Assembly (NCBI GenBank): GCA_021234155.1
Contig: JAJEKV010000041.1
Location: 4,330,829-4,394,828, forward strand
Reading direction: 5' to 3'
From: Isoetes taiwanensis
Taxonomy: Eukaryota > Streptophyta > Lycopodiopsida > Isoetales > Isoetaceae
DNA: 64,000 bases
Position numbers and translations under genes: made by a program. The notes under the pieces are model-generated. The model searched no databases. It had not been told where the DNA came from and saw nothing but the letters and a program-made list of their open reading frames with translations. Shown here one piece after another: positions 223-32,596 of the stretch (position 1 is the stretch's first letter; every line of letters begins with the position of its first letter).

Positions 223-1143
223 CTAGGAGTAAAAAACCTCGCCCTGAAGGGTTTTCGAGGGAAAAACCTTGGCAGTAGTAGGTATGCTAAAAGGTTGTAC
301 AATGATAGATTTTAAACTCAATTCTATATTTTTAGGACATAACTGAATGCGTGCATCTATGATGTCTTGGAAAAAAGATCCTATCAAATCCACTGAAAGT
401 TGCGTCCACCAGCAGCGCATGAAGCGACTGGTTAGGCAAAATCAACTCAACATTGCGGGCTCGGATATGACTGAATGTTAGGACAATATTGAGTATGTGG
501 CATTCGTCTTCAATGGTGCCCTGCTGGTAACACTTACAGAGTCTATCCTTATGCGTCTCTCGAGCTCATCTGTCTATCTCAATTCAGAGGGAATGTGCAT
601 CTGTACAAACTGAAACTATCAATCTGCGCTTTTTCAGTGACAATGTGTACGGAGATAGCGTTGTGAACCCCATATAAGCATGGGATTGACCTGGAGCTGA
701 TAGTATTATATCTTAGAGCACTAGTATCCCAAATCTTACCAAGGAAGCAAGTAGCAAGATATTGTCGTAAATGATCGTGATCCTTTTCGATTTCCACCTA
801 TATACACATGTGTTGTTGCACATTCCATCGGAAGAACCACTGAGCTCATCTCCCCTTCCATCAGGCCTTGAAGCACTGCGGACCCATGGCCACTATATAA
901 GCCACGTTGAGGAGGCGGTCATTGCCCATACCAACTACCTTCTGAAAGTAGATAATCTGGCGGACGAGTGGGGCCCGTTGTAAAGGTAGGAAACATGGTT
1001 CCTGCAGAACAATCTGGTAGGGGACTATGGGTTTTATGCCAAGTGCTCGAGGTAGAAAGCCTTTTCTTACATGTTTCAATTCTTTCCAGGTGGCCAGACT
1101 TCGATCCCGTACAAAAGAACGGGGTACCACAAAAACTCTAAAC

Positions 1144-1963
1144 CAGGGAAAAAATTAAGCATATTATATATTTTTTCATAAAAAATGGTTTGGCTATTTT
1201 TCAAAATTTTACAGTATTTTATGATATTAATTTGGCTAAAGTTATTATTTTTATTACATTTATATATATTTGGACTTGGCGAAACTTTTAAATTATTACT
1301 ATAAACTTTCACTTGGCTATTTTTTTAATTGGAAAAAGAAAAAAAATGTAAATTAAATTCTGTAGCTTTAGATATATTGTACTACAATTACAAATAATAA
1401 TTAACAATCAAGGAACATACAATAATATTGAAGAACTTTTAACAGAAGCTCACAACATAGCTTATAACATCCATAGTCTGAACTACATTCAATGCAACGA
1501 CATCTTATAGATATGGTGATCAAATTGCACTTATCTCTAACCCTTGAAGGAAGATGCATACCAACTCGGGCATCTAGAGGGATATTGGCCATTTCTTACA
1601 GTTCCTTTTTGAAGATGCATATGTCGTATATATAATAGAAATTCATAGTTTAAAAAACTACTATCATTGATGATGGTAGGTGGGGATGTGTAAAATTCTA
1701 TAATAAGAATTCATTTTTATTTGGCTATTAGTGATTTAATATATAAATATTATAATATAAAGAAAGGCTAATTCCCTTTTCTTTAAGGATAAGAAATAAA
1801 ATAGTTTGGCTAATACTAAAAAAATAATGGAGTACTTGTTTTAACTATGGCTATTTTTTATTTTTTAAAAGAAAATCTCTCTTCATAAAATTCGCCGCAA
1901 AAATTGCCTAGACCCCTTAAAAAATCGCCATTTGGCTATATATAGCCACTAATTTTTTCCATG
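1144..1963 (-). mobile_element. non-autonomous hAT-like element, copy 1
   Basis: An 820-bp element inserted in the LINE relic. Ends are CAGGGAAAAAATTA at 1,144 and, read on the minus strand, CATGGAAAAAATTA at 1,963. It is flanked by CTCTAAAC (1,136-1,143) and CCTAAAC (1,964-1,970), a degraded 8-bp target duplication. CAGGG-type termini plus an 8-bp duplication is the hAT signature. A second copy in inverted orientation lies at 30,162-30,975. It is AT-rich and has no transposase. The one conserved ORF (1,401-1,592, minus, 63 aa) is listed separately. Confidence 0.85.
1401..1592 (-). CDS. 63-aa Cys-rich ORF carried by the hAT-like element
   Basis: Small ORF starting MANIPLDARVGMHLPSRVR and containing a Cys-rich C-terminal half (CRCIECSS..GCYKLCCELL). 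The same ORF is present in the second element copy at 30,529-30,720 with a single Ile/Thr difference, although the surrounding element has accumulated changes. I do not recognise the protein. It could be a captured exon or a chance ORF; conservation between two copies is the only support for coding. Confidence 0.35.
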   Translation of the reverse strand: MANIPLDARVGMHLPSRVRDKCNLITISIRCRCIECSSDYGCYKLCCELLLKVLQYYCMFLDC

Positions 1964-1989
1964 CCTAAACAAGTGTGATGATGGGCCCA

Positions 1990-1994
1990 GTCAT
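1990..1994. repeat. target-site duplication of the Ty3 element, left copy (GTCAT)
   Basis: GTCAT immediately outside the left LTR; the same five bases follow the right LTR at 54,112-54,116. Removing the element and one copy rejoins the LINE reading frame, which confirms the boundary. Confidence 0.9.
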
Positions 1995-4496
1995 TGTTGA
2001 AGGTATTCCTGGCAAACCTTCAACCTCAATGGTTGAGAACCTCCAGGTTGCTTAAGGCAACCAATCTGTGGCTAAATCCCTGCACAAATCAGCCCAAACT
2101 AGCTTGTGAACAAGTTGTCCCTAAACAAGAAAAAACTGTCTGCCAAACTCTGATTGCCAAATGAAATGGGATGATTGTTTTTTGATGGGAGCAATTGCAT
2201 TTGGTCCTCAGGAGACTCTAGAAGACTCTTGCAAAAGTCAGAGGCAAATGGTTGACCAGAACTAGGTGAAAAATCGTCTCCTGGGCAGAGAGCTCAAACT
2301 TGCAGATGGGAAAATGTGAGGAATTATTTTGAGTTTCTTTCTTTAACACCTTCTGCCTAACCTATAGAACACGTGCATCATGTTGAAACAACAGAAAGTT
2401 TGCAGTAGTGTGCACAAATGCCATTTTCTGTAGATTTTTTGTGTCAGTCTGAAGCAGAGCTAAAAACAAGCTTTGAGTTGTGGTTTAACGTGACCCTTTG
2501 ACTTTTATGTAAAGGAATTGGCTTCCTAGAGATGAGTACAGGCTCTAGATGAACAAAATCTAATGCAGGATGCTACTTGACTAAACTTTTTTGATTTTTT
2601 GAAGAATTATCACTAACTTGACAATGCAGTATTGAATATGCACTTTAGATTGAGATTTAAGCTAAGACAACTTATACAAACCGTAGTTACTTTTGTTGTT
2701 GAGACTCAAGCACTGCTACAGCATAGGTGGAGCCACCAACATTTGAACTTCAGATCAATACAAGACACATTCTTCACCAACTTCAAATTTTCATTCAAAG
2801 GAGCTTTCAAGGATTACAATGAGTGAATTCCCCAGTGATTTAACACAGAAAAATTCATGAAATCCGTGAATCAAAGGTAATACATGACTTCAAAGGATGA
2901 TATAAGACTTTATTGCATCAGATCTTCAGGAAATCTGACACAAGGAGGCAGTACAGGGCAGATAGAGGTCATTCATCAGTAAGATGCTGGATTTGATCAC
3001 TCAAGACGCTGTGGTGCTCGAAAAATTCCTGAAGCCTCATTAATCCCTTAAACCCGACAATTTCTGGTCGGTTCTTGATGAAACGGATCGGATTTGGCCT
3101 CTTCTGCTTGTCAGATTCTTTCTTGACCTGTAAAGTAGTCGGCTGAGGTGTTGTAACCATGATTTCTCTTTCAAATTGATGTCCCCTTTTTCGAATAAAC
3201 CCCTCTAACGTGGCCTTGCTCTTGTCTGACAACAATAAATGAGGTTTTAACCGTTCTTAGTGAGATTCTTGGCATCAAAAATGCTAAATCGGGCCGGTTT
3301 GGTCATGATTTGCCTGTTAGTTAGGCTGCATTCTCGGATCTTGCCATGATTTTAGGGTTCTTCACGAAAAACAGAAATACCCCACAGGCGTTCAGCGAAA
3401 AATGGGCTCGGCGGATTTCCACGCGGCTAAACATGGTTGGCCAGAAAATGACATGGATTTTGGGGGGTAACCAAGCTAATTGTTTGCGAAAATGAGGTAT
3501 GGCGCGCATCCCAAGAACAACTAAACCAAGGGCTAGATGTGGTCAAAATGAGAAGTTATGACCACCACTTTGCATGATTTTTCACGAGCTTTCAGGTGGA
3601 AAAAACAAATTTTGAAAATAAGCAACTTCATTTTTTGGCCCGTTTTCCATGGTGTACAAGGTCATGTGGCATATGGGTGGTGACTTGGCAAATGGTGATG
3701 ATGTGGCATGGTGAAGTGGAAGGCAAGGTGTCAAAGAAAATTTCCCTAGGTAAAATCTTGATGGTGTATCAAAGTGTGAATGACACGTGTTGGGTGACTT
3801 GGTGATGATGTGGATGAGGTGTGCATGATTTTGATGGTGAGGTGGCACTAAATAGTGATTTTTCGACTTTGACCTAGCCCTTTTTGGGGTAGTCAACTTA
3901 GGCTTTTTGAGACTTGATCTTTGACCAATACTTTGGTCTTGAACTAATGATGTGATGGATTTGTAGACCTTCTCTCCTCTTTCTTTTTCTTTTTTAGAGA
4001 GAGAGTGACTTTTTTTTTTCAAACTTGTCATGTGCATGGTAATGGATTATGAAGTGTGTGTGTGATGTACATGGTGCATGAGTATGAAAATATGTGGTGT
4101 GTGAGATTTTGCCCTAGGGAAAAAGACTTTGAGCTGATAAAGGAAGGGTATGAGGAGTGAGTATGGATGTGAGCAATGCCTTCTTGAGCCAAGAACTCTA
4201 AGATAGTGTAAAAATCTCAAAAGGTGTCAAGACAACATACTCTTTGGGGGGTCTTCCAATCTTTGACTAGGGGTCTTCTCTCTTTGACTTCTTTTTCAAC
4301 ATTTGACTCAAGTCTTGCTTCCTTTTGCTAACTTGAATGCTCCTTTGAATGTTCTCCATTGGCCTTCAACTTAGTGTCAAGATTTGTCTTCATACCTAAA
4401 CAATGAGCTCCAAATAGAAATGTCTTGCACATGTGTCTTGATCTTCTTGTGATTTCTTGTGAAGTTGCTCTTACATGCTGCCACAACATGGCAGCA
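1995..4496 (-). repeat. 3' LTR of the Ty3 element
   Basis: 2,502 bp, TGTTGAAGGTATTCCT at the left and GGCAGCA at the right. It aligns over its whole length with 51,775-54,111, with small indels in each copy (for example about 80 bases near 2,940-3,030 absent from the other copy). No gene is seen in it; short ORFs (such as 3,582-4,037) are chance frames in LTR sequence, although some are conserved between LTRs as expected from common origin. Confidence 0.92.
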
Positions 4497-5017
4497 TCAT
4501 GCTAAACAAACAAAGGGAGTATGAAATGGAGATAGTGTTCTTCAAATGAGCTTGCCAATGTGGGAAAATGGTTGGCAATGCTTAGGGAGAAGGCAGGTGT
4601 GTATGGGAACAAGGGTGATGGAAGAAAGGCTGTTTGAGTGGTCAGATGAATATGAATGAATCAAGTGATGAACCTCCATGACAAAATGATGATCTTGTTA
4701 GGAATGTGACTGCCATGTGGAGGTATGGTGGCAGTTTTGACTTGGTTTTGAAGGAAATGGAGATGGGGAAAGGGCTTGTGATGGATTTTGGCCAACTCTG
4801 AGCAGATTAGGTGTTTGTGAGTGTTTTGAAGGGTGAACCTGCATGGTAATGTGTGTGATATGCTATTAGTCTGAGCATGTTTGAAGCTCTTCTTGATGTT
4901 TTCCTAATAAGTACACATGACTAGGAAGTAAGGAAAGTGTTGTTTGCATAAGAAAGTAAACCTAGGCCTAGCTAAGTCTGATCTAACCTACAACTACCTA
5001 ATTTTCTGTAAATAGGA
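4497..5017 (-). other. 3' untranslated internal region of the Ty3 element
   Basis: Lies between the 3' LTR and the integrase stop. No coding signal on either strand. No obvious polypurine tract is seen next to the LTR at 4,497, which is unusual and may reflect decay. Confidence 0.55.
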
Positions 5018-5979
5018 CTATTCAAATAGACTTAAGGCAACATGTTGTTGCCAGTACCTCTTTAAGTGAAGGACATTGAAAGGATTTGGCAATTCTTGGC
5101 CATCTGTGAGATCCTTGAGCCAATAAGACTCCCTGCCAGCCTCACCAATGACCTCATAGGGCCCCTCCCATAAATTCTCAAACTTTCTTGCAACCTTTTC
5201 TCTGGCCTTGTTCCATTTTAGCACAAGTTCTCCTGCTTTTATGGTACCTTGTAATATGTGAGCAGCTTTGAATGCTGCCATATCCTTGGTTTTTTCAATA
5301 AGACTGCATTTTCAGCATCATACCTGTGCTCTTCAAGTTGCATCAACCTGATGAACCTGTCTTGCAAAGCATCTTCCATTTTGAGGTTAATAATATGCGC
5401 CATTCTTAAAGAAGGCAACTCTAGCTCTATAGGTAGAACAGCTTCAATGCCATAAACCAAACTAAAAGGGGTATGCTTAGTAGCATGCTTTATGGTGGTT
5501 CTGTAGGCCCATAATGCATCAGTTAGCTTCAAATGCCAATCTTTTTTGGATATGCTTACTGTTTTTTGTAGAATTGACTTAAGTAGCTTGTTTGTTGACT
5601 CTGCCTGGCCATTTCCTTGAGGATAATATGCTGAGCTTTTTGTGTGTTTGATCTTGAGGGTGCAGAGTAGGTTGTCAATCACTTCATTGACAAATTGTGA
5701 TCCTCTGTCTGATATTAGCTTCAGGGGGATGCCAAATCTGGCACAGATATTTTCATGAAGGAATCTGGCTATTGTCAGGGCATTGGCTTGTCTCAATGGC
5801 ACTGCTTCTGCCCATTTTGTGAAATAATCAGTAGCTACCAGTATAGACTCATGATGAGCAGAAGAAGGAGGATCTATAGGCCCTATAAAGTCCAATCTCC
5901 AGATTTGGAAGGGTCCTGGAGATATTATGACTGTCAGAGGAGCAGGCTGAAGGATTCTTTTTCCAAAGATTTGGCATTT
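5018..5979 (-). pseudogene. Ty3 integrase, split by the TIR transposon
   Basis: Integrase of the Ty3 element: inserts the cDNA into host DNA. On the minus strand the start (about 5,975) is the second half of the zinc finger (KCQIFGK). Then come WRLDFIGPI with the first catalytic Asp, LISDRGSQF with the second Asp, and YYPQGNGQAESTNKLL with the catalytic Glu. The C-terminal part (5,018-5,281: GPYEVIGEAG.ESYWLKDL.G..LPNPFNVLHLKRYW) is in another frame, so there is a frameshift near 5,285. The first zinc-finger half is at 14,506-14,520, beyond the inserted transposon. All three DDE residues are present, so damage is recent. Confidence 0.88.
5976..5979. repeat. target-site duplication of the TIR transposon, left (ATTT)
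   Basis: ATTT here and at 14,502-14,505. Deleting the transposon with one copy restores the integrase frame exactly at the zinc-finger CxxC, so the 4-bp duplication and both ends are base-accurate. Confidence 0.9.
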
Positions 5980-6036
5980 AACACGATTGCAAATTAAACG
6001 GGAGTGTTGCATCACTCCCGTTTCAAAGATTCCCTT
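5980..6036 (+). repeat. left terminal inverted repeat with a perfect hairpin
   Basis: First 25 bases match the right end at about 22 positions. It contains AAACGGGAGTG, the 6-base loop TTGCAT and CACTCCCGTTT, a perfect 11-bp stem (about 5,995-6,022). The right end has only a degenerate version of this inner part (CGGGAG...GAAACGAGAG). The hairpin may be a transposase-binding structure. Confidence 0.8.
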
Positions 6037-6333
6037 TAAAAAAACACCAAGTTTCTAAAATAAGCCTTTTTTGATAGTTGTTAAGAATTTCTAGAGGTTT
6101 GCATTTTTTTTCATGCCATTTTGGCCCATTATTAGACGAAAACTTTGTACTTATGAAACACAAATCATAAAAATAGCAAAATTTAGGCATAGACTTGAAG
6201 AGACTGAAAGCATTACAAAAAACAAGCACCAGAATAGAAAGGAAAAAAAAGTACTATGTTTTTAATAAATTGTTGTACATCAATATTGAAGATTCATTGT
6301 AATAAATAATGATAATTTTAATATCACGATGAG
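6037..6333. other. subterminal non-coding region of the TIR transposon
   Basis: AT-rich, no coding signal. It holds the AAAGATTCCCTTT block shared with the other end and probably the 3' untranslated region and polyadenylation region of the methyltransferase gene. Confidence 0.5.
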
Positions 6334-9300
6334 TCAAAGATCTACATCATAGTCCTCCTCATTCTTTTTGCTGCTCTCTGCCATCTCGTCCTTCTGTTCT
6401 ATCTGCTCCTTTACTGGGGACTTGAGTTTTGTATCCTCTTTGTTCTCTGGAATGGTAGCTAAAGCTACTTCTTTAAGCTCTGCAAAGGTTGCCTCATCGT
6501 CTAGTGAGCTGGAGAATGGAGGTTGTATCTCTGAGGACGTTAGTTTAGCATAATCAGATGAAGACTTGGCCCCTAACTCCTGATTTTCATCTGGTAAAGT
6601 AGGTAAGGCAGCCGATCTCATCTTCACAAAATGCACGACCTCCTTATCAATATCCACGGCTACACACGCTTCTGCGGCCCTTCTTAAGTGCACATGCGAT
6701 AGTAGTACGAAACCGGAGAAAGCATCAAGTACCCAATCTCACCGGCGCGAGAACATGTCCGGGGAGATGGTTGATGAGCTTTTGTGGTTTCTCGTAGTGA
6801 TTCACAATCCCGCCTTGTGCACTTGGGTCCCGCAATTTACTGTAAGAGGCTCATTTGGAAACTCTAGGACGTTTGAAAAGTTTTGACAAAGCGGCAAGTT
6901 AAAGTGATCCATGGTCCTCTTCCCATCAAAACTCCAATAAGCTACATGAAGGTACTCTACCTTCTTTGAGCAACCTTGGTCCTCCACCATGGTAGTTGAT
7001 GTTCGTTTTGTACCTAGTGAAGCATATAAAGTGATATTAGCAAAAACAAGAAAACACTTCGAAAACCAGAAACAGGAAATACTATTCCGGAATACACACT
7101 ACGTTATTAAAGAGAAAAGTAATTGTATTCTGGAATAAGACTTACCGCACAAAGGTTTTCATATCACACTGGAACCGGAGAACCAAAGTGATTTTTGAAA
7201 GCTGATTCCACCAAGCCAGACTGCATGCTCGAATGGAACGTAACTAAACGCCAATGTTTGGCCGTTGAGATCTGCTTAATTCCTTCAATAAAAGCATTAA
7301 ACTCTGAAAATTTGAAGGGCTGGTCGTCGTATCTGCTGTCTTTAAGCTTAAACCCATAGGGAAGATCAGCAATAACCAAAGTAAAGTCCTGTGGCTTAAC
7401 CGTTCCGACAAGGTTCGTGCAATCACCATGAATGATTGAATATAAATTGTTTTGATCAAACATGCAGAATCTCTCGTAGTCGGATGGTTCTGGCTCAACA
7501 GTTCTTCTTTCAGCTAACGACCTCTCTTCCCGTGCTGTTCTAACCAAATTCATAAAGCCCTCGGGTAGGTCTTTATTTTTCTTTTTGTTCTAAGAAAAAC
7601 AAAACAACAACTGTCAAGAGATCGTTTGTGCGGAGAGAAGGAATTCTAAGTGTAATTACCCAGCCCTCAAAATTTGGTGAATATTGGACAATGCGCTCGT
7701 CGGATGTGGCAATTGGGTAGAGTTCCTTGCACCTTTCCCATGTGTCGACGTTTAGCTGCTCCATCAAACATGTTTGACATGTTATGACGTTTTTTTGGCT
7801 GCAAGACGTTAAGGAAACAATGAGTTTAAACAAAAGAATGAAGGCAACGTAAAAGAAAAACAAATACAAGTCAAGCTAATTGTATTCTGGAATACAAACC
7901 GGTTAACTTGTGATGCTACCTCGAAACAATATGCAGAAAATAGTTCTACTACAGGACAAACACATTGCTTCTCTAAAGGAACGCATGCGTATTCCAGAAT
8001 ACACAGGCCAACATTCAGAGGAGCAATGTGTATTCCGGAATACACATGCCTTCCTTCACACGGGCAATGTGTATTCCGGAATACACAATGCCTTTCTAGA
8101 GACAAGCAATGTGTATTCCGGAATACACAATGCCTTTCTAGAGACAAGCAATGTGTATTCCGGAATACACATTGCCCGTGTAAAGAAAGGCATGTGTATT
8201 CTGGAATACACTAGCCACGCCGATGTTTTTGGGAATCTAACATGCAATAACTAATGTTTGTGTCAGAAAACTTACTTGTGTAATTCCTTTGACATTTCTT
8301 CTAGGCTAAACTCCTTATCAACAACTTTTTGGAGAAGCTGCTCGAGAAGCTCGCGTGTCGGGAGAAGCCACCGCATTTCCGACGGTAATGGTCATTTCTT
8401 TTTTGGTATGCGTCGAGCTTTTTTTTCTTAGTTGTCTCCTTTCCCTTGCTCTTTAACTCCCTCGCTTTCGAACATTGTAAATATCTCGGTCCCGAGTTCC
8501 CAAATCTGTTCAAGAAGATTCACGTTAAATAGTTGATTTGCTATTACGAATACATTTTGTGCTTACCTTGCCATCTCTAAAAGCTAATCGGAACCGGTTA
8601 TGTCGTGGTGTCGAGACCGCCTTTTGTTGGCCTCGTCATATTTCAGCAAAGATTCAATAGCACACGCCTCCTTAAGCTCCAAGGAAAATGCTGGCTTCTT
8701 CTTGTCCTCACCGTACTTTTCCTTGAATATTACGTTACTCCCACGCGCATGAACCGGATCTTGTCGTGAAGCTCATCTTTAGTTTATATTAGTTGTCGAC
8801 ATTGTGGGTGTTGGCAACGATTTTCGCTTCTTCATCGGTAAGACCACGATGCGCTTGGCCTTGAGGGGCGGAGAGGTACCTCGGGTTCTTCTTCTCTTTA
8901 TAAAGTTGCCTTCTTGCCTTAAAGCTGTGATTGCCTCCCAAGACGTAGTGAGTGTAGATCTCTGCGTTTTCTCATCATAGTCCCTGGGGGTTTTGCACTC
9001 TTCCCCTCATCAACAAGGACAACTATTGGGGCCACATGAGCATTTGGATTGCTCCTTATTCTGTCTTTCAGGTTCCTTAAGTGATCGGCATAAATTTTGC
9101 GAACCTGAAGTGGCCTTTCACCAGCTTCATTTTTCGGTGGAAGCTTCATTGAAGTGACTGGCAAATAAATTACACCTTGCACAAACTTGTGCAGGTTAAT
9201 CTCTTCCATCTTTTCAGCTGTCTTGTCAACTTTTTTTTCCTTTATAGCAACACCAGGTGCTTTACCCTTCCCCTTCTTCTTCTTAGGTTCCTCGGAAATA

Positions 9301-9870
9301 TCCTCTGCTGCAATTAAGGCCGTCTGCTTTTTTTTAGGCTCTTTAGCAGCAATTGTGTCCCTTGGCCGCTTCTTTGGTGGTGGTGACGGTGGCCTTTCGC
9401 CGGACTGTGATGGACTCCCAGATTGTGATGAGGAACTGCTCGGGCTCGGTTGCTCATCCTCTTCCTCGGGCTCGGACTCGGACTCGCTGTAGGGGAAGTC
9501 TTCGCTCGTTGTGCTTCGAACATAGTTGATGATGGCACTGAGCGACCTCTTGCTGATGTAGTGAGCAACATACTTGTACAGAGGACGAGGATTTACTTTC
9601 GCCACTCTAAAATAGGATTCATCAACATGAATAAAGCCTTGGGATGTCTGAAAAGACAGTCTCCCTCGCTGGCCGGACTCCCCAGCTACTTCACTCACGG
9701 ACTGGATGGTGCCCATGCAAACAAATTCCCTCTCATCGTACCTTTTTTGCTCCAAAGACTCAGAAGCAGGACATGTAGGAAAGTAAGTGTCTTTGTACTT
9801 TCCGTATACCCCTTGTAAAAAACCATTGAGTTTGAAAGTTTTTAGAGATGGATGGCGGTATGAGATGACT
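6334..9870 (-). CDS. ParB-like domain fused to a beta-class DNA methyltransferase (five exons, frame breaks)
   Basis: Predicted to methylate an amino group of adenine or cytosine in DNA. Exons (minus): about 9,870-8,567, 8,505-8,276, 7,798-7,660, 7,589-7,146, 7,013-6,334. Introns are GT-AG, and the first three junctions keep phase. Exon 1: unknown N-terminus, an acidic/Ser/Pro/Lys linker (9,230-9,490), then a ParB-like domain (IYLPVTSMKL near 9,180; IVVLVDEG near 9,030; GGNHSFKA near 8,930; LTDEEAKIVANTHN near 8,830). Exon 4 has the catalytic motif IV as ADLPYGF (7,350-7,370; DLPY instead of DPPY). Exon 5 has NHYEKPQKLI (motif X, near 6,780), VLDAFSG (motif I, near 6,725) and CVAVDID (near 6,650). 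The order IV-X-I is that of the beta class. The tail is acidic. Single-base frame breaks lie near 8,990, 8,620, 8,440, 8,380, 7,165, 6,795 and 6,745. ParB-methyltransferase fusions are known from phages and bacteria; the introns show this one is eukaryotic. Confidence 0.78.
7082..7140. repeat. two palindrome-type sites in the last intron of the methyltransferase gene
   Basis: ATTCCGGAATACAC at about 7,083 and TGTATTCTGGAATA at about 7,125, both variants of the 18-bp palindrome, inside the 132-bp intron 7,014-7,145. Confidence 0.7.
7980..8215. repeat. intronic array of six 18-bp palindromes
   Basis: Six copies of GTGTATTCCGGAATACAC or close variants at about 7,987, 8,028, 8,068, 8,109, 8,149 and 8,191, spaced about 40-41 bp, within the 477-bp intron 7,799-8,275. 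Spacers are related: two are identical (ATGCCTTTCTAGAGACAAGCAA) apart from trimming, and the outer ones are their near reverse complements (CACACGGGCA / TGCCCGTGTA), so the array is itself an inverted repeat. Short ORFs here (both strands) are by-products of the repeat. It is not a CRISPR array: no cas genes and the spacers are not unique. Confidence 0.85.
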
Positions 9871-10189
9871 CCTCAACCCTTCTCTCTGTGGGTGCGGTTT
9901 CGTTGGGATTTTAACGGTTCTCTTGTGTTTGTTTCTTCTTTGCCTTCTTATGCATGCAAATTGTGTGTAAACACGATCTTGTTAGAGAAAGCAGTGGCAA
10001 AAAACTATTCCAGAATACAAAATGTCTTGCGAAAAGGAAAAAACAAGGGCAAAAAGAGGACCAAAATGCCAAAACAACACTGCAATCTTGACAAAAAAAC
10101 AGGTCTAAACAAGTTTTAAAAGCAGAAAAAACACCTAAAGTCACTACAAAAATCACGGAAAAACTACCTTACAAAACAAAAGAACACGA
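9871..10189. other. intergenic spacer between the divergent transposon genes, left part
   Basis: No supported gene. It lies upstream of both divergent genes, so promoters are expected here or in the array to the right. A degenerate palindrome half-site (ATTCCAGAATACA) occurs near 10,007. Confidence 0.5.
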
Positions 10190-10515
10190 ATGTGTATTCC
10201 GGAATACACTTTCGCCTTTGAGGAAAGCGCGAGCGTGTATTCCGAATACACTTTCCTTTTCCTCAAAGGCGAAGTGTATTCCGAATACACTTTCGCCTTT
10301 CCTCAAGCGAAGTGTATTCGGAATACACTTACGCCTTCTCGAAAAGCGAAAGTGTATTCCGGAATACGCTACGCCTTCCCTCGGCGAAAGTGTATTCCGG
10401 AATACACATTAAATCTTTCCCTCGAAGCGTATTCAGGAATACACTTTAAGCGAGGGAAAAGCGAATGTGTATTCGGAATACACTTTCGCCTTCATCGTAA
10501 ATGTATTCGGAATAA
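10190..10515. promoter_or_regulatory. intergenic array of nine palindromes between the divergent genes
   Basis: Nine copies of GTGTATTCCGGAATACAC or variants at about 10,192, 10,234, 10,273, 10,311, 10,351, 10,390, 10,427, 10,466 and 10,501, spaced about 39 bp. Several copies lack one central C or G (TTCCGAA, TTCGGAA). The spacers are also inverted repeats (TTTCGCCTT ... AAAGCGAA). More variants occur at about 10,590, 10,610, 10,750 and 10,830. Position between two outward-reading genes suggests a regulatory or replication/transposition control region; this is inference. Confidence 0.75.
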
Positions 10516-10880
10516 AGCAGGACACACAAATGATTGTACCTTGTACTTTCTTACTCACCTCTCCATGTTTTCTCTATGAGTATCGGAATACTGACTCTGA
10601 ATATTATATTCGAAATACCGGGCGACTTCAGCTCGAATTTGGAATCAATACCCCAAGGCGCCAAAATTTCCTTTTAAAGGTGTCCATTCCCTCTTGCTCG
10701 TTTTTCTATGTGAAGTGGAATACGTTTGGCCTTCTTGTTACGCTCTAGTGTATTCGGGAATAGCTTTTAGTTTGCCTTTAAACTTAATTGTTGCGGGAAG
10801 TTCTACTTTTAGTAGGCGGGCTTGTATTACGGAATAAGAAAAGCTCTGCGATGAGAAACATTATCTAAACTCTACAATCG
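10516..10880. other. intergenic spacer, right part
   Basis: Scattered degenerate ATTC-GAAT palindromes, no coding signal; presumed 5' region of the transposase gene. Confidence 0.45.
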
Positions 10881-10894
10881 TTTTGCGCCTTAAG

Positions 10895-13800
10895 ATGACA
10901 AACCGCCGTCAACAAACTTCCACCACCTTTCGTTGTCTCAAGCTCGCTGCAGTTACGAGGACACGCTTGGGACCAACGTCGTTTTCTTCCAACACCGAAT
11001 TCTCCAGACTCCTACCTCTGCTTCATCGTTCTTGCTTCTCGAAGACACACCGAGTCCAGCACGTAACAGACTTCCACCACCCTTCCAACCGTCACCAAGT
11101 CCTGTAGACAGCACACTGGCATCTCCTTCCAAAGAATCACCACTAGTTCGGAGCGGGCTGCCACCACCCTTTGCTCCATCCCCGGGACCTGCAGAAGCTC
11201 CACAACAAAGGGTGCTCAAGAACAAGCTACCCCCCCCTTTTGTAGTTTCGCCTCCTTCGTGCAAACATACAAGGAACACAGAAAACACAGAAGACTGTGA
11301 GATTCACTACAATTTCTCTCACCAGGACTTCACTACAAATGAGGACGAAGCTCCAGCATGCACTCCTCTTCACACAACAAGGGTTGTGACACATGGATTT
11401 GCAGAATTCCAGTCCGCTCTAAAGGAGATGTTTGCAAGAACTCCTTTTCAAGATGGTACAAGAACAGCTGATGCCACAACCTCTTATGGGCCATCACCAC
11501 CCTTTAACACTGTACCCCCGCCTATTCCGGGAACAACTTCACGTGGTCTGTTTTCCTCTACAAGCACACCACTCAGGACAGAGGAAGTCACCCCCAGAGT
11601 AGAAGTTTCATCAGAAGATGAAGACACCAACGAGGAACAAAGAGATTACATGTTCTCAAGCCAATCTTCAAAGAAATTCAAGGTGGATTTTGGTTTGAGG
11701 GCTTGCTCCTCTGCAAGAAGAAGAAAAATCTTATGGATGAAACAGAAAATGAGGAGACTTTTGAGAACTAAATGCTGCTCATTGGGTTGCATCAACAGAG
11801 ACTTAACATGGCTAAATTACGAAAGCGGTTAGAGACAACTACTGAGTTCCATGACATTGGCGGACCCGAATGCCTACTTAGCTTATCATGTAAGACCAGA
11901 CCGCAAACACCTTCTTGCACTACATTAACCGCCAAGAAGTTTGCGAAATGTTTTATGGTTGTCCACCGTTTAGGGTCCACAAGAATGTCTAGAATACACA
12001 AAAAGATGGACAAAAATCCAAAGAATCGATGATCATTGTGGACCAAGAAGAGTTGTAACCATGCATGCCCTTCTTCTTTGTCCCTGGATGGAGAAATATT
12101 TTAGAGAAACATGTGAGAAGCTACCCTAACGACAACATGTATCATTTAACCGATAACATCACCAAAAAGATGTTTTTAATGAGTACAAAGAGACTTGCAC
12201 TTTCAGCTTCAAAGACATCTCTTACTCACACTTCACCGGTGTGGAAAAGTGAATTCGGTCTTGTGAAAATTCCTAGAAAACATAGAATGTCCGTTTGCTC
12301 GAGGTGTGCGAAATTAAAGAGTCAACGAAAACCGCAAAGACAGAGGTCGAAAAGAAGTAAGTTCATGTTCTCCAATCTCTCACTTGTTTTAGAGAAAATG
12401 CTTTGACCTGATTTCTTCTACGTGATATTGTGCAACGTGAAACCTTGCCGGACATCGTGAACAACAAGCGCGAGAGAGAGAAGAAAGCTTGCCAAGCATA
12501 GAAAAAAAAAAAAACTCTTGAACGTCCAACGCAATACATGTGTCTTGTGATTGATGGAATGGACCAAAAAAAACAACTCTACCACATTTCTTGAACATTC
12601 CTAAAGATGTGCCAGAGGAATGTTTTGTTAAGGTCCACCTTGTAGGAGCTATGGTCTTCAAAGGAAGTCTAAGGTGCAAAGTTTTTTTGACGTATCCAAA
12701 CTTGCATGGTGACCCCAACCTCACAATTACAATTCTTAACAAGGTCTTGTGCGAGCAAGAGCAATTACCACCAGTGCTTTATCTGCAACTTGACAATACT
12801 ACAAGGGAGAACAAGAATCAAACACTCTTTGCGTACTGTGCCATGTTAGTGGAGCTAGGGATCTTTAGAAAAGTGAAGCTCGGTTTCTTACTTGTAGGCC
12901 ACACTCATGATCAGATTGACCAAATGTTCAGCAGATTTTCTGTGCGCCTTAGAAGGAAGAAGGCTTTCTGTCTTCCTTCTTTAGTTCGAATTATTGAAGA
13001 TTCTTACACTCCTACTCCAAAGGTCGATCTTCTTAAAGAGATCGCTGATTTCGAGAGTTTGTTTTCTCTCAACGTTCAAACAGAGAACAAGCTTTGGAAC
13101 AAGTTGAATGATCTCACCTTTCAACATCATATCAAGTTCTACTTGAAGGATGGCCAAAGCTTCTTCTGAGGGAAGAAGTATACCACAACTAAGGACCGAG
13201 TCCGCCGAGGGATTACGCTTCCTTAAATATATTCCGCACACTTCCTTCATAGAACGTCTTTGAGCAACTTCCTCTCAAAAATCCTAAGGAGTCCAAGCGG
13301 AAGAAAAGTACCCCGAGTCATCCTTAAAAGCCATTGAAAATGGAATTTCCTCGAGCTTTAAGTACTTCTTAGAAGAAGATCGGATGTGGTGGAGTAATTT
13401 CTTTCTCGAGCAGTAAAATTGTTGTACAAAACATAGCTCTAAGACAGTTGCAAGAACCATTTCAATGGCCTAACACCTTCCATCAACCCCAGCACCAAGC
13501 AGGTCCAAGCAGTGCTACATTTGCACCTGAAGTAGAAGACGAGGAGGACCGAGTCATGTACCTCGGACCAAGACGCAGGAATGAGCCCCAAGGTAATATC
13601 ACAGAAATTACCAAAGGTATGCTAATTGCTCTTCCGACCCGAGGAGGATGACAAAGGTCGACCGCTTACGGATAGCAAAAGTGCTTGACATACCAAGGAG
13701 GAAGGCTTAGTCACTAAACTCAAGATTCATTGGCTTGCAACACGCCGAGAAAATGCTTTTGAAGGTAGATATGAGTTAGAAATGAGAAGCCAAGGAAAAG

Positions 13801-14125
13801 GGAGAAAGTCCAAGAAGGTGGGTTGTAGGGACGAAATTTGAACCTTAATGACGTGACTATATTGTGCTATGATTTTAAATTGAAATCTGACAATCGTCTA
13901 CGCCAGAAGACTATCAATTTGCTTAAAAAAGCTTGTAATTATGAAGAAGATGATGAAGAAGGTGGTGACAATGCTTCACCGTCTGTTGATAGTGATGAGG
14001 AAGATAACTCAAGCACTTCCTCGAGTGACAGTGAAAGAAGTGAAGGTGATGACGATGGCATAAATGAACATGAGGACGTCCTGGATCCCTCTCTCATCAC
14101 TCCTCACACTTTTGCACATAACTGA
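10895..14125 (+). CDS. DUF7869-type protein, probable RNase H-fold transposase (frame-broken)
   Basis: Candidate transposase of the TIR element. N-terminal part (10,895-11,290) carries about four copies of a Pro-rich repeat, (N/S)(K/R/G)LPPPF followed by V/Q/A and Ser/Pro. Then an acidic stretch and a Cys cluster (KCCSLGC, near 11,775). Then NDNMYHLTDNITKK, and FTGVWKSEFGLVKIP..HRMSVCSRCAKLK (12,235-12,330), a CxxC zinc site. Core: VIDGMD (12,547-12,564), YLQLDNTTRENKNQ (Asp at 12,792) and LLVGHTHDQIDQMFSRFS (last Asp at 12,918). The three acidic positions match a DDD/E triad. The C-terminal part runs via PFQWPNTFHQP (13,460) and GMLIALP (13,620) to an acidic Ser-rich tail ending at 14,125. 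Frame breaks near 10,940, 11,830, 12,170, 12,565, 13,200 and 13,650; the A8 run at 12,566 is one. Introns are not excluded. Confidence 0.72.
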
Positions 14126-14449
14126 GTCTTAGAAAAAGACTGTAAATTTTGATGTGAATATGAAGATTCTATCTTCAAATTTTGAGAATACTACAGTTTC
14201 AATTACAGACTTACTTCAATTTTTTGTTAAATATTTTATCCTCTGAAATTAGAGTTTCTCTCTTAAAACATACTTTAAGAACATTCTTTTTGCTAAGAAA
14301 AGTGACACTTTAAAAAAGTCAATTCCTTCGTTGCAAAAAAAATTTAGTCATTTCGGGGGGGGTCAAAATAGAATTTCATGCATCTTTTTTTTTTTTAACC
14401 TCATTTTACCCCCTTTTTCGTAAAAAAAAAGGGAATCTTTGCGGAATAT
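14126..14449. other. subterminal region right of the transposase gene
   Basis: AT-rich, with homopolymer runs (T about 14,386-14,396; A about 14,423-14,431). No gene seen. Presumed 3' untranslated and subterminal DNA. Confidence 0.5.
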
Positions 14450-14501
14450 TCCTTTTGCTCTCGTTTCAATGATTTGCTCCCGTTTAATACGCAATCTTGT
14501 T
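14450..14501 (-). repeat. right terminal inverted repeat of the TIR transposon
   Basis: Read on the minus strand it starts AACAAGATTGCGTATTAAAC and continues GGGAGCAAATC, matching the left end. ATTT follows at 14,502-14,505. Confidence 0.88.
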
Positions 14502-14505
14502 ATTT

Positions 14506-16318
14506 GTGGCAACTTCTAATGTTCTCAAAGCAGTCTTTGAAGATTGAAGGCCAGTAGTAACCTGATCTAAGTATATTTTTGGCATTTGTGTCTGCAGCAA
14601 AGTGACCTCCACATACACCATCATGGCAGGCTTTTAACACCAATTCTGCTTCAAACTTGTCCACACATCTTAGCAAGACACCTTCTTTGTTCACCCTGCC
14701 CAAAACATCACCAATTAGCCTAAACTTCTTGACCTTGTCTTTGAATCTCTTGTGTTGGCTCGGGCTCTGATTCTTTGGCAGTTCTCCCCTTTCAAGAAAG
14801 TTTCTAATGGCTTGTTGCCAGTCTTCCTCCTCAAGTAGGTTAATTGTAGCCTCTACGTGAGTGCTGCCTAGATCCTCCAAGTCTTCATACTTAAACAAAA
14901 CATCAGTAAGATAAGAGCTAGGATCCTTAGATTTTTTAGTTACCTGAATGTCTATATCATAGTCTTGCACTTTGCAAGCCCACCTGCATAGTTTGGCTTT
15001 CTGTGGTTTCTTTGCAAAGAGCAGGGGCAGTGGATTTTGCTTCATGAACACTTGAGTCTTGCTGTTCTGGATCAGGTGTCCCTGTTTGTCAAACAAATAC
15101 ATCAAAGCTGCTGCACTCTTCTCTAGCCTAGCATATCTCATTTCAATATTAGACCACATTTTGCTGGAAAAGGTCACAATATTGTTTCCTTGCATCAGAG
15201 CAAGGCCTACAGCTTTTTTGGTCACACTCAGGTAGGCTTGGAAGGGCTCAGATGTGTCTGGTGGCTTACGCAAGGTTGATTTGCATATGGCTTCAATGAT
15301 TGCCTCAAAGGAAGCTTGGCATGCCTCTGTCCACTCTACAGATATGAATTTGCTTCCTTTTTTTGAGAACTTCCTTCCTTTGGTCAAGTTTGTAATAGGA
15401 TGGACTGTATGAGAGAAGTGTGGCACATACATCCTTAAGAAGCTTGTCATGCCCAGAAAGCTCTTGACTTGCTTGATAGTCTTGGGTGGTGCTAAGTTCA
15501 TGAGGGCTTGGATCTTGCTTTCTGCCACCTGGATTCCTTGATCTGAGACCTCATGCCCAAGTAGATCCTCTTTTGAGCAAAAGAAAATGCATTTCCTTGG
15601 GTTTAAGCTCACTCCTCCTTTCCTGCACAAAGAATAGAGTCGTGTGAGGTATGTCATGTGATCCTTTAGCTTAGTATTGACACACAGATCATCTAAATAA
15701 ACTCTGAACAAACTAAGAGCCATATCCTTGAAAATGGTGTCCATTGCTCTTTGAAATGTGGCAGATGCATTCATAAGTCCAAAGGGCATTTTTTTCATGG
15801 CAAAAGTCCCCCAAGGTGTGACAAAAGATGTCTTGGCTTGATCCTCTTCTTTGATACTGATCTGGTTAAAACCTGAGAAGCCATCTAAGAATGAATAGAC
15901 CTCCTTTGCCTGCAACACTTCCTCAAGAAAAGGCAGAGGATAGATTGTTGTCTTGTTCAAATCCCTGTAATCAATGCATATCCTAATGGTTTTGTTCCTT
16001 TTTTCAACAGGCACAATGCAAGACAACCAATCAGGATTAATTATTTCCTTTATGACTTCAGCATCTTTCATTTTGAAGAGTTCTTCCCTAATGAGATCTA
16101 ACAAAGAACTATTAATTCTTCTAAGTTTTTGCACAACTGGTTTTGATTTTTCTTTTATCTTAATTTCAAACTCACAAACACTCTTATCTACTCCTAAAAT
16201 TCCTTATAATCCCAAGCAAAAACATCATTCCAAGTATTAAAAAAACTTACAAATGCTTCCCTCTCTTCTTCTTTGAACATGTCTCCCACATACAAGACCC
16301 TATCTTCATTGTTTTTTC
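14506..16318 (-). pseudogene. Ty3 reverse transcriptase and RNase H, with the start of integrase
   Basis: Copies the element RNA into DNA. The open frame is 16,134-14,500; upstream (16,318-16,135) a broken frame still reads VLYVGDMFKEEE...FAWDYKEF, the usual lead into the Ty3 RT. RT motifs: IRICIDYRDLNKTTIYPLP, FLDGFSGFNQI, FGLMNASATFQRAMD and FRVYLDDL with the YLDD active site. Next are the RT-linked RNase H (KKAVGLALMQGN...FSSKMWS, RYARLEKSAAALMYL) and the integrase H/C zinc-finger start (GGHFAADTNAKNILRSGYYWP), cut at 14,506 by the TIR transposon. Catalytic RT residues are intact. Confidence 0.92.
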
Positions 16319-21239: not shown

Positions 21240-22575
21240 AACAACTTGCTTGCGTTATGTGTTTTAGACGCATATGTGTTATTTAGATGCATATGTGTTT
21301 TAGACATATGTGTTATAATAAATATGTGTTATATAGTAGACATATGCCGCATATGTGTTATTTAGACGCATATGTGTTATTTACTAAAACACATATGTCT
21401 ACTCTCAGACGTTTTCGACGGACAAATTTCTTTGTGTTAGAACAGAAGCACACTGATCAACCAGAATAAACCCAAAGAAAAATCTGATTTATAGATAAGA
21501 AACCCACAGATTCAACCTAAAAATCAGAAAAAACCAGGATCCCACGGATTGAACCCATTGTAACAAAAAAAAAGTGTATGAATCAACCAAAAAGAAACCC
21601 AAGCACCGTAAAATCCACCTACTTCTGTGTGTTTTATCCACAAATAACTTTGTATCTTACACTCCTTGCACTTTCTAGAATCGGAACGAACTGTTTTGCC
21701 ACCCTCACCCCAATCGCCATTCGCCTTTGCTCAATGTCTGTTTGAGTTAGCGTCTTGTTCAAGAAATTTTCCCAAGCTGGTGCCGCCATGTCTGAACATA
21801 AATAAATGTTAGAAACTGTCATCCAGCATTTAGCATTTGTTATGAAATGTTGTCTACTAAATAACACATATGCGTTATGTGTTTTAGACGCATATGTGTT
21901 ATTTAGACGCATATGTGTTTTAGACATATGTGTTATAATAAATATGTGTTATATAGTAGACATATGCCGCATATGTGTTATTTAGATGTATATGTGTTAT
22001 TTACTAAAACACATATGAGAGTAGACATATGTGTTACTAAAACACATATGTCTACTCTCAGACGTTTTCGACGGACAAATTTCTTTGTGTTAGAACAGAA
22101 GCACACTGATCAACCAGAATAAACCCAAAGAAAAATCTGATTTATAGATAAGAAACCCACAGATTCAACCTAAAAATCAGAAAAAACCAGGATCCCACGG
22201 ATTGAACCCATTGTAACTAAAAAAAGAGTATGAATCAACTAAAAGGAAATCCAAGCACCCTAAAATCCACCTACTTCTGTGTGTTTTATCCAACTTTGTA
22301 TCTTGCACTCCTCGCACTTTCTAGAATCGGAAAGAACTGTTTTGCCACCCTCACCCTAATCGACATTCGCCTTTGCTCAATGTCTGCTTGAGTTAGCGTC
22401 TTGTTCAAGAAATTTTCCCAAACTGGTGCCGCCATGTCTGAACACAAATAAATGTTAGAAACTGTCATCCAGCATTTAGCATTTGTTATGAAATGTTGTC
22501 TACTAAATAACACATATGCGTTATGTATTTTAGACGCATATGTGTTATTTAGACGCATATGTGTTATAATAAATA
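21240..22575. repeat. tandem CATATG-rich units 1 and 2
   Basis: Two copies of a unit of about 640 bp (about 21,240-21,880 and 21,880-22,575). Each has a block of roughly ten CATATGTGTT motifs in both orientations, a perfect 19-bp-arm hairpin GAGAGTAGACATATGTGTT (full in unit 2, 22,017-22,059; missing in unit 1), a conserved spacer (GACGTTTTCGACGGACAAAT...) and a minus-strand coding remnant (AAPAWENFLNKTLTQTDIEQRR). Further units are at 27,903-29,000 and 48,461-49,400. Confidence 0.8.
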
Positions 22576-25500
22576 CTAGTAAACGTGTGCCCGGCATTGC
22601 CGGGGTAATGTCCTAGGCATGTGTTTTTACTCGGCTTTTAACGTCCATACACACGTTGATATAGGCAAGATCAGACAATATTTGTTTTTGTAATTTTTTT
22701 GTTATTGAAATTTGTCTAATGACAGTCTCATCAATCTATTAACTTTGCGTTTATCAATTTCAACAGAGAAAAGAATGCTTTGTAACAAATGTGTTAAATC
22801 TACCTCTAAAAACAAAATTTTGGAAAGCTGGATCCAGAACTTATGCTCAAAATGTCACCCTTAGAAGTAGTTAAGTACACGAACAAAAAATAGGTACAAA
22901 AATACAAAACACAAAATTTTGTCCTAGCTCATTGACGTATTTTAGTTCATGATGGAACTCTAAATATACATCTCCACATGGCGCACATCACCAAGGGCCT
23001 AATATTGTACTTTGTTGGATAACATATTAGCCGGGGTAAAAGTGAAATGCACTTCTCCGACAGATAACATCTTAGCCGGGGTAAAAGTGAAATGCACGGG
23101 CGAGTCATTGATTCGAACTGCCCACGACGTCTCACGACTATCAAGCACGTGAGACAACTCATCCCGAAAGTAGACTCCTATGATGGAATCAGATACCGCC
23201 TCAGGAAGGAATGATTTGTAAACCCTAAAATGGGTTCCATTACATATTCCAACACATGTGAGTTCCTTTGCTACTAAGACACCAATTCACCAGTGCATGG
23301 TATCGTTTCTCATCTGAAAAAGAAGACAAATAATTGCACGTTTAGTCAAAGCACTACATTACCCAAAAGATAGATACATGCACTTTATCCTCCACCTACC
23401 TCTCTCAAAGCACATCCGCTTAAACACCGTTCACTTGGATAGGCTTGATCAAATAGGAAGTCATCAATTAGTTGGATGAACTGCTCCAACTTGACAACCT
23501 CGTCAGTGCAAAATATATCCTTGAGCTTTCCAATAAGCTCCTCAATTTCCACGCTTGCTACTCCATGCATATGAGCATGGTATTTTCGTTCCCAATCATA
23601 CCATGACCCAAGAGCACGTACGACAAAAATAACACTGGTAACGTGATAACTCCTGTCACCTTTTAGGCATTTGGCGACGTGGTGACCAAAGACATACCAA
23701 GGGACCAAAATACGCACCATCTACATGGATAAATAAGTAAGTAAGTACATAAGAAAAAAAGAAATAAAATAAAAGAAATCAATGAAAAAAAGAGAAATCG
23801 AAAGTAGAGACATTTAAGTATTAGGCTCACAATTAGAGGAGTTCTTTGTATACAATATTTGTTGTATATCTTGATCGGCCGACCTCTGCGGAAGCATCTC
23901 CATCCTTCGATAGAATGAGTACCTTTATGCCTTGGATTCCTTGAGCTCTCGAGAGTGCCACATAGAGTTGTCCGTGACTAAATACTGGGTTTGGCAAATA
24001 CAAACCAACCATTTTCATCGTTTGGCCCCAGGACTTGTTGATTGTCATGCCAAAAGTCAAGTGAGCGAAATTGTATCGCTCAAACCGAAATGGAAGTTCT
24101 CGCATTATTTGGCACCAAAGGAATTCAAATATGAACACTCTGCTCCCAATATTTTTTTCGGTGACAATCTCGATCTCTATAGCACATCTTCCCAATGAAC
24201 GTATGATGAGGCGAGTTCCATTGTAGAGTCCTTTCCGTAGAAACCGACCTCAACAACATGACAATCATGCCAACCTTCAATGTCAATTGATGTGGAGGCA
24301 TCCCACTCGAGTTTGGCGATTCAAAAATTCAACAGGATAGACCCCTGCATCATTCTCATCCACAAACGATCGGCACTGTAATAATCAACAGGCGTAGCAG
24401 GCAACCACCCTGTCATCCTCTTGTTTACTTCATCTACATCGTCATTTAGTGGCGTAAGGATTGCCCTTTGCACCCAATAGGGCACACTTTCATAATTCGT
24501 GGAAACATCCCGAAATGCCACGGCTAGCAAATCATTCAAGTCCTGTGATTTGACACAAATCTCTTCCGGAAGACATATTACGTCCGACCCAATGTCGGGA
24601 AATGTGGTTTCGAGCCCATCTCCAACCCGTAGAAGATAGTCAGCAAATGCCCTTTGCTCTTCCAGATCGTTCCCCACATTGTTCATTACCCGCATGTTTG
24701 TATTGAGCTTATGTTCCTCGACATGATCCCATATGTAAGAGTACTTCAAGGAAGCTTGCACAATTTGGTCGTGGTACCACAGGTGGAACCTGGCGAAAAT
24801 CTCCTCCTAAAACAACAATGAGTCCTCCAAATAATTTGTCACATGACATCACATCATGGAGCGTTCTATCCAGTGCTTCATAAACATGTTTATGCATCAT
24901 TGGGGCCTCATCCCATATAATCATACGTGTCGCTCTTATCAATTTTGCCATGTCGGACTGCTTTGGAATATTGCACGTTGATGTCTCATCTATATTTATC
25001 GGTATCTTGAACCTTGAATGTGCAGTGCGCCCGCCCTTCAATAAAGTGGATGCAATTCCAGAGGAAGCAACTGCAAGTGCAATGAAACCTCTGGCACGAA
25101 CATAAGACAACATGGTGTTAAAAAAAAACTCTTTCCTGATCCACCTGCACCATGAACAAAGAACACCCGTCCTTTTTCCAACATCACGTGCTCATGGATC
25201 ACACAGTCAAAGATAATACGTTGGTTGTGATATAGGCGGTCCACAGCTTCTTGCACCTCTGCCATGTCTTCTTGAAACACCTCATCCCGAAATATCATAT
25301 ATGGATCTATTGCACGCTCGGGAAGAATGAATTCAAACTCTCTCAAAGATCGTCCGCCAGAATTCACACACTTGCACACTTTGATCCTCCGCAACCCTTC
25401 GTGCCTCATGCAAGAAGTCATCGACCATAGAAAGCTTGACTTCTTCCCACGATTCTGTGGATTCGGTGGGTTCGCAATTTAAAAGTATCATGGCGAACAT

Positions 25501-27902: not shown

Positions 27903-27903
27903 A
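23833..27903 (-). pseudogene. Helitron Rep-helicase (HUH Rep plus PIF1-like helicase), frame-broken
   Basis: Drives rolling-circle transposition. Minus-strand order: Helitron-like N-terminal domain (27,903-27,016: AGENRKV-type Cys region, RQYNAPTANEVAVLM, YDPLHFVLLLPYGTDGWH); Rep start (27,019-26,700: RYRDAMSIVREHGG, ITMTANANWKEI); the HUH motif as CLPHVHLLTI (about 26,590); second Rep half (26,450-26,004: MMHGPCG, with AIKYLYKYVYKG holding the catalytic tyrosines). Helicase: Walker A GAGGSGKS (about 25,150), Walker B IIWDEAPMMHK (about 24,910), and INKSWGQT ... SHGQLYVALSRAQG (24,030-23,930). There are at least seven frame changes and several stops around 26,650-26,780, so this copy is dead unless the breaks are consensus errors. 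Confidence 0.9.
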
Positions 27904-29150
27904 TGTTAGAAACTGTCATCCAGCATTTAGCATTTGTTATGAAATGTTGTCTACTAAATAACACATATGCGTTATGTGTTTTAGACGCATATGTGTTATT
28001 TAGACGCATATGTGTTTTAGACATATGTATTATAATAAATATGTGTTATATAGTAGACATATGCCGCATATGTGTTATTTAGACGCATATGTGTTATTTA
28101 CTAAAACACATATGAGAGTAGACATATGTGTTACTAAAACACATATGTCTACTCTCAGACGTTTTCGACGGACAAATTTCTTTGTGTTAGAACAGAAGCA
28201 CACTGATCAACCAGAATAAACCCAAAGAAAAATCTGATTTATAGATAAGAAACCCACAGATTCAACCTAAAAATCAGAAAAAACCAGGATCCCACGGATT
28301 GAACCCATTGTAACTAAAAAAAGAGTATGAATCAACTAAAAGGAAATCCAAGCACCCTAAAATCCACCTACTTCTGTGTGTTTTATCCAACTTTGTATCT
28401 TGCACTCCTCGCACTTTCTAGAATCGGAAAGAACTGTTTTGCCACCCTCACCCTAATTGACATTCGCCTTTGCTCAATGTCTGCTTGAGTTAGCGTCTTG
28501 TTCAAGAAATTTTCCCAAACTGGTGCCGCCATGTCTGAACACAAATAAATGTTAGAAACTGTCATCCAGCATTTAGCATTTGTTATGAAATGTTGTCTAC
28601 TAAATAACACATATGCGTTATGTATTTTAGACGCATATGTGTTATTTAGACGCATATGTGTTATAATAAATATGTGTTATATAGTAGACATATGCCGCAT
28701 ATGTGTTATTTAGACGCATATGTGTTATTTACTAAAACACATATGAGAGTAGACATATGTGTTACTAAAACACATATGTCTACTCAGACGTTTTCGACGG
28801 ACAAATTTCTTTGTGTTAGAACAGAAGCACACTGATCAACCAGAATAAACCCAAAGAAAAATATGATTTATAGATAAGAAACCCACAGATTCAACCCAAA
28901 AATCAGCAGGATCCCACGGATTGAACCCATTGTAACTAAAAAAAAGGGTATGAATCAACCAAAAGAAACCCAAGCACCCTAAAATCCACCTGCTTTCTAA
29001 CGGTACTTTCTAACGGTTCTTTCTAACGGTACTTTTACCTTCAAACTATATATACCAATACGTAAGTATTGAGAAATAGCTTGGAGGAGAAGATGGTGCG
29101 CACTCGCAAGCAGAGAGAGTTTTGTGAATCCAGTCTCAGCAACATGCACA
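27903..29150. repeat. tandem CATATG-rich units 3 and 4
   Basis: Two more units of the repeat seen at 21,240-22,575 (about 27,903-28,545 and 28,546-29,000), with full hairpins at about 28,112-28,158 and 28,745-28,785. The minus coding remnant is at 28,383-28,655. The tail to 29,150 (TTTCTAACGGTACTTTTACC through to CAACATGCACACTC) is nearly identical to 49,390-49,552. Confidence 0.8.
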
Positions 29151-32520: not shown

Positions 32521-32596
32521 ATACAGGTACAGGGTACGACCCCGATGTAGATCGCGGACCTATCGAAAATGGAGAAATACATAAATACTGTGTAGA

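Follow-up and report, generated by a model that had tools for sequence, protein, structure and literature searches.

Sola1-1_Ec32 of the brown alga Ectocarpus, as far as the available text of its description goes, is a DNA transposon in which the strand opposite the transposase bears an accessory gene that joins a ParB-like domain to an N4C/N6A DNA methyltransferase, and self-binding and self-modification have been proposed for it; the same text cites ParB-methyltransferase proteins of transposons in green (Iyer et al. 2011) and red (Petroll et al. 2025) algae (PMC12477816). The stretch considered here, referred to as the window, is 64 kb of DNA from Isoetes taiwanensis and contains an 8,522 bp element that, judged by the available account, has in common with Sola1-1_Ec32 an accessory ParB-like and methyltransferase gene lying opposite to that for a transposase. 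A preliminary description of the window knew of no plant element with such a pair of genes. The pairing itself is already known from the algal transposons, according to what is available of that source (PMC12477816), whereas literature searches found no ParB-methyltransferase transposon in a land plant.

The Isoetes element and its two genes

The element is a cut-and-paste DNA transposon. Its terminal inverted repeats (TIRs) are identical at 22 of 25 bases, it is flanked by an ATTT target-site duplication (TSD), and the pattern of its ends matches just these two ends in the window (expected 0). Excision of the element together with one ATTT restores a single 812-codon Ty3 reverse transcriptase-integrase frame, whereas no control join displaced by 1 or 2 bases exceeds 609 codons; the base-accurate ends claimed in the preliminary description are borne out by these observations. 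The Ty3 pol around the insertion (5239-5979 and 14506-16203) contains 5 CG in 2.4 kb, an observed/expected ratio of 0.03-0.06, yet is open over 812 codons.

The DUF7869-type gene reported earlier is likewise confirmed by a match to PF25273, which scores 176.8 bits against a cut-off of 26. The predicted structure of a DUF7869 relative resembles DDE transposases and retroviral integrases, and the protein is predicted to have an RNase H-like DDE transposase fold. DUF7869 is not mentioned by name in the literature searched. A predicted protein of Adiantum nelumboides (P0030) joins integrase PF00665 to DUF7869, and seems to represent a further case of a DUF7869 element lodged in a retrotransposon.

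Divergently from the DUF7869 gene, the minus strand carries a gene predicted from its sequence to encode a beta-class N6/N4 amino DNA methyltransferase. Its protein was read as a composite through introns and frame changes, and this composite matches PF01555 (E 1.2e-9, 38.8 bits, gathering cut-off 26.7), the phage methyltransferase family phrog_67 (E 7e-10) and, weakly, CcrM (E 9.8e-5). The motifs follow the order IV-X-I that is characteristic of beta-class amino-methyltransferases, at residues 631/775/800 of the composite and 679/813/838 of an intact fern relative, L018, described below; the DPPY-like motif, ADLPYG or ADIPYG, would favour adenine. The spliced methyltransferase gene of the preliminary description therefore stands in its motifs and family, but introns are insufficient to yield the reading and many single-base frame changes are needed as well. 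No homologue was found among the 7996 candidates scored with the full composite, a search perhaps swamped by low-complexity words, and the trimmed composite retrieved two proteins resembling bacterial methylases. Among the phage tblastn matches listed (20 of 277 records), identity was 21-24% and the methylase part alone was covered, and viral contig scans with both queries found no relative of either. Weak Pfam matches below cut-off (NAM-associated, CAF20, Pox_Ag35 and others) were disregarded.

The ParB identity of the N-proximal region is weak. The ParB/Srx domain PF02195 found no match in the window piece at E<=10 or in the intact L018 protein at E<=1, and for this reason the region is called ParB-like only; NCBIfam, Pfam and PHROGs also fail to recognise it. 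Alignment to phage ParB domains with hhalign scored 23.4, where 100 shuffles reached no more than 19.5, at a probability of just 10.8%, a profile-profile comparison gave P 0.032 at a probability of 1.6%, and a hidden Markov model built from those phage domains found no real match. A low-confidence fold model bears a weak likeness to the parS-binding part of ParB/Noc; with this model Foldseek returned nothing at E<=0.001, ParB/Noc chains making up 7 of 36 weak matches, and by sequence the ParB-like piece matched no solved structure at E<=10. Of the ParB-like blocks first noted, what persists is thus this weak profile and fold likeness, and no family assignment. A further conserved region, N-terminal to the ParB-like part (from about residue 106 in L018; exon 1 in the window), aligns between the window and L018.

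An intact fern copy and selection on the methyltransferase

When the DUF7869 alignment was run against species genomes of bacteria and archaea, 17 loci were identified, eight of which (L013-L020) lie in one metagenome-assembled genome (MAG) named uncultured Trichormus. Trichormus azollae includes 'Nostoc azollae', which the available text of a published study gives as the cyanobiont of the fern Azolla (PMC6786969). Given that the genes have introns and that L018 sits in a Ty3 element, the eight contigs are most likely Azolla host DNA. The DUF7869 frame is open in seven of them, and in five (L015, L016, L017, L018 and L020) the same methyltransferase lies upstream of it on the opposite strand. 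The remaining three end 519-598 bp before the DUF7869 frame, short of the gap of about 940 bp that separates the genes in L018, and so could not show a methyltransferase; all five contigs that reach far enough carry it. In the nine distant loci from other MAGs (L021-L029) no such methyltransferase was detected by tblastn or by a methyltransferase profile run on the frames; these are DUF7869-bearing, eukaryote-like contigs within other bacterial MAGs.

The preliminary description had proposed a search for other full copies, and L018 is such a copy, with both genes intact, a 4-bp duplication and related ends. Its excision restores a 360-aa Ty3 frame, and its spliced methyltransferase is a stop-free protein of 960 aa that matches PF01555 at E 2.3e-16 (60.8 bits, cut-off 26.7) and aligns collinearly with the composite read from the window (29% identity over 855 columns, E 1.7e-97). 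Three introns occupy common positions in the two genes and one is private to each; the fern copies lack the intron at 8506-8566, which precedes exon 2 of the window gene. The left TIRs of the two elements agree in their first 11 bases. L017 and L020 have related TIRs without a clear TSD, L020 being internally deleted, so that a 4-bp TSD is seen in two of the four elements with both ends visible. Only the L018 methyltransferase is readable to its end, since those of L017 and L020 read to early stops and those of L015 and L016 run off their contigs.

In the fern copies, strong purifying selection acts on the methyltransferase gene. Over the ParB-like part (306 codons; 277 with L020), dN is 0.063-0.124, and of the ten pairs one has a dS of 2.43 (dN/dS 0.026) and nine are saturated in dS. 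The motif IV exon (117-153 codons; L018, L020 and L016, L017 being left out for the stops in its exon) gives dN 0.118-0.158, with dS 2.30 in one pair (ratio 0.07) and saturation in two, and the motif X exon (96 codons; L018, L017 and L020) gives dN 0.030-0.086, with dS 1.70 in one pair (ratio 0.02) and again saturation in two. The three computable comparisons therefore span dN/dS 0.02-0.07. Since the DUF7869 and methyltransferase pair is both conserved and selected in the fern copies, it is no chance capture.

The window copy, as assembled, is not intact: alignment of its DUF7869 gene to P0038 and P0001 (71% and 78.5% identity) requires 29 frameshifts and passes one in-frame stop. A serious possibility, if one falling short of probable, is that this copy is a dead, decayed element mobilised in trans, in which case the frameshifts are real and the window says nothing about function. 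Consistent with this, the frameshifts accumulated in the DUF7869 gene while the surrounding host pol frame stayed open, and a long interspersed nuclear element (LINE) frame with as many CG (72; 33100-35862) is open over 920 codons. The pol, with its 5 CG in 2.4 kb, is however unusable as a control for a CG effect, and a CG-rich Helitron region is split across several frames. There are two arguments against a dead copy: first, neutral decay would be expected to leave about 10 stops where one is seen (Poisson P 0.0005, an estimate that depends on an assumed indel-to-substitution ratio). Second, the frameshifts cluster near CG, 16 of 28 falling within a 13-base span against 7.9 expected (p 0.0025), as could be expected if modified C were misread in sequencing; this test tried 16 dinucleotides, dropped the one frameshift at the alignment edge, and found proximity to GA as well (p 0.005). 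Two explanations stand, real decay and the misreading of modified C in sequencing. Whether the frameshifts reflect the element's own methylation is left open, as the CG link is present but is explained equally well by ordinary 5-methylcytosine or by real decay.

Palindrome arrays as candidate binding sites

Twenty palindromic sites of the GTGTATTCCGGAATACAC type lie in the introns and the divergent intergenic region of the window element and none elsewhere in the 64 kb; a scan with a 16-mer gave 17 matches, 16 of them inside the element, against 0.21 expected. The fern contigs carry a differing palindrome, TCGATGC-N3-GCATCGA, in 3, 3, 10, 15, 2, 5, 4 and 1 copies in the order L013 to L020 (on average 0 to 0.075 in shuffles), every one upstream of DUF7869, and the single site in L020 is no more than chance. 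These GTCGATGCNNNGCATCGAC arrays may be the binding sites of the L018-type protein. Imperfect palindromes, some of them repeated, also occur in the distant contigs L021 (4989-5145; 7 against 0-4 in shuffles) and L025 (25-163 and 3898-6928; 12 against 1-4), those of L022 (4 against 0-4) being not above chance.

The fern sites are spaced at 31, 41-43, 50-54, 62-63 and 72 bp, for which the best period in the range tried (6-20) is 10.3 bp, so that the sites would occupy one face of the helix, and the spacing of array A of the window (41-42 bp) fits the same period. The first spacing test covered the fern arrays, array A and the pair in the last intron, leaving out array B of the intergenic region, and its p of 0.0017 rests on five spacing classes picked after they had been seen. 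When the 18 fern spacings unique per copy were used, the score was reached in 0 of 5000 uniform draws, tandem duplicates not being independent.

On balance, these observations favour a transposon whose ParB-like methyltransferase binds the element's own palindromes and methylates its own control region, likely in the service of expression or of anti-silencing. The ParB-like part would bind the palindromes as a dimer, in the manner of an array, and the methyltransferase would place N6-methyladenine (6mA) or N4-methylcytosine (4mC) on the control region of the element; the most likely use would be to set the expression of the element or to prevent its silencing by the host, and the second choice the marking of the ends for the transposase. 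Within the fern set the protein and the palindrome arms are alike (L013 slightly different), while between the window and the ferns both differ, and such divergence of protein and site together is a prediction of a self-encoded binding protein. Two findings weigh against this reading: first, the transposase co-varies with the palindromes as well. Second, array B (34-42.5 bp) does not fit the helical period, a misfit that may or may not be due to indels of the window copy; with array B added the best period is still 10.3, at a score reduced from 0.78 to 0.58. Bringing in array B slightly lowers the probability given to self-binding and self-methylation, and also that of a more far-reaching and doubtful interpretation, a eukaryotic counterpart of ParB/parS addressing. 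In that scheme a dimeric methyltransferase with a ParB-HTH-like part would load on palindromes in a bidirectional promoter and write a mark foreign to the host while a transposase carrying a BAH-like domain would read the state of the chromatin, forming a self-addressed epigenetic switch in ferns whose protein and site diverged together.

A rather unlikely alternative to self-methylation has the DUF7869 transposase, or some other protein, binding the arrays and the methyltransferase working at a different place, such as the element ends or host DNA. Plant transposases such as TnpA of Spm/En and that of Ac bind repeated motifs, and some repeated palindromes occur in distant DUF7869 contigs without a detectable methyltransferase (L021 and L025 above shuffles). 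Arrays are also present in the three fern contigs that stop before the methyltransferase, though all contigs were picked by DUF7869. On the other hand, the sites do not lie subterminally but inside the element, in its introns and shared promoter region, and a weak prediction likens the ParB-like region to the part of ParB/Noc that binds parS. It is highly improbable that the methyltransferase is a passenger that was picked up a single time and serves no function: the frameshifts of the window copy and the early stops of L017 and L020 would suit a passenger, but the idea is largely refuted by the selection result, in which dN is low and dS very high or saturated over the ParB-like part and two catalytic exons. 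The intact L018 and the three introns at matching places despite 29% protein identity also speak against it.

Features of the element in the window and of the fern copy L018 (positions in the window unless stated)
Feature	Position	Strand	Remarks
Whole element	5980..14501	.	8,522 bp, in Ty3-type pol frame; TIRs, TSD and frame restoration
Left TIR	5980..6004	+	starts AACACGATTGC
Right TIR	14477..14501	-	
ATTT TSD, left copy	5976..5979	+	
ATTT TSD, right copy	14502..14505	+	
ParB-like/beta-class DNA methyltransferase gene (predicted)	6334..9872	-	spliced, many frame changes; exon bounds by eye
Exon 1, N-terminal and ParB-like region	8567..9872	-	GGNHSFKARRQL near 8910-8940; more frame changes within
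Exon 2, post-ParB region	8276..8505	-	
Exon 3	7660..7798	-	both flanking introns positioned as in L018
Exon 4, catalytic motif IV	7146..7589	-	ADLPYG
Exon 5, motif X, then motif I and acidic tail	6334..7013	-	motif X VNHYEKPQKLI
Palindrome array A, methyltransferase intron	7880..8211	.	7 GTGTATTCCGGAATACAC-type sites; six from 7989 on spaced 41-42 bp
Two more palindrome sites, last intron	7082..7139	.	43 bp apart
Palindrome array B, divergent intergenic region	10005..10763	.	11 sites, 5 one base shorter at centre; inner spacings 34-42.5 bp
DUF7869 (transposase) gene	10894..14125	+	ends inferred; possible short intron ~12357-12392 (uncertain)
DUF7869 domain PF25273	12555..13169	+	E 4.8e-52; contains LQLDNTTRENKN and GHTHDQID
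Region matching BAH-like C-terminal domain of relative P0007	13543..13915	+	approximate, by eye
L018 whole element	391-8114 (L018)		ends AACACGATTGCG.../AACACGTTCGC...; TSD AACA

Elsewhere in the window, a Helitron-like coding region (23833-27915, minus strand) has a PIF1 helicase domain (PF05970, E 6.7e-52) and is broken up into several overlapping frames, and a LINE (32585-37035, plus strand) has a first frame of 390 aa, an endonuclease/reverse transcriptase frame of 920 aa and then in-frame stops. A retrotransposon gag region (PF03732; 50150-51789, minus strand) is extremely CG-poor (observed/expected 0.09), and three minus-strand frames (21634-21948, 22286-22612 and 48461-48997) share the near-identical peptide NTYASK.HNAYVLFSRQHFITNAKC of a repeated element.

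Comparison with described systems

A 4-bp TSD is a trait of the Sola superfamily, and both the window element (ATTT) and L018 (AACA) have one. Azolla is reported to be rich in SOLA elements, for which the main text mentions no ParB or methylase (PMC6786969), and this abundance is only suggestive as a hint of Sola membership. Sola1-1_Ec32 differs from the window element in its length of 21.5 kb and is called Sola-1 by its authors; the available part of its description is silent on palindrome arrays, on a BAH domain and on any test of selection, and gives the proteins of green and red algal transposons the same domain pair as that of the window element (PMC12477816).

Phage ParB-N proteins (12 loci), several fused to a methylase by annotation, have in some cases the ParB-N part before the DNA methylase, as in the window gene, but their genes are intronless and their profile similarity to the plant ParB-like region is weak. 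Retroelement-borne methyltransferases are a further case of a transposon carrying its own DNA-modification enzyme, of different chemistry and family. The same holds for TET/JBP-carrying fungal transposons, which, in the text available, also bring their own DNA-modification enzyme but again differ in chemistry and family (PMC12730594).

Against this background, the additions made here are the palindrome arrays, a BAH-like part in the transposase and the evidence for selection. Transposon-borne ParB-like methyltransferases are extended from algae to land plants, and the intact fern copy together with the selection signal indicates that the enzyme matters to the element. The palindromes offer a concrete candidate binding site, a missing half of the published proposal of self-modification. 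Together these results make two questions directly testable in Azolla: whether a transposon in a eukaryote lays down a DNA mark of its own, and whether 6mA or 4mC is truly present in plants.

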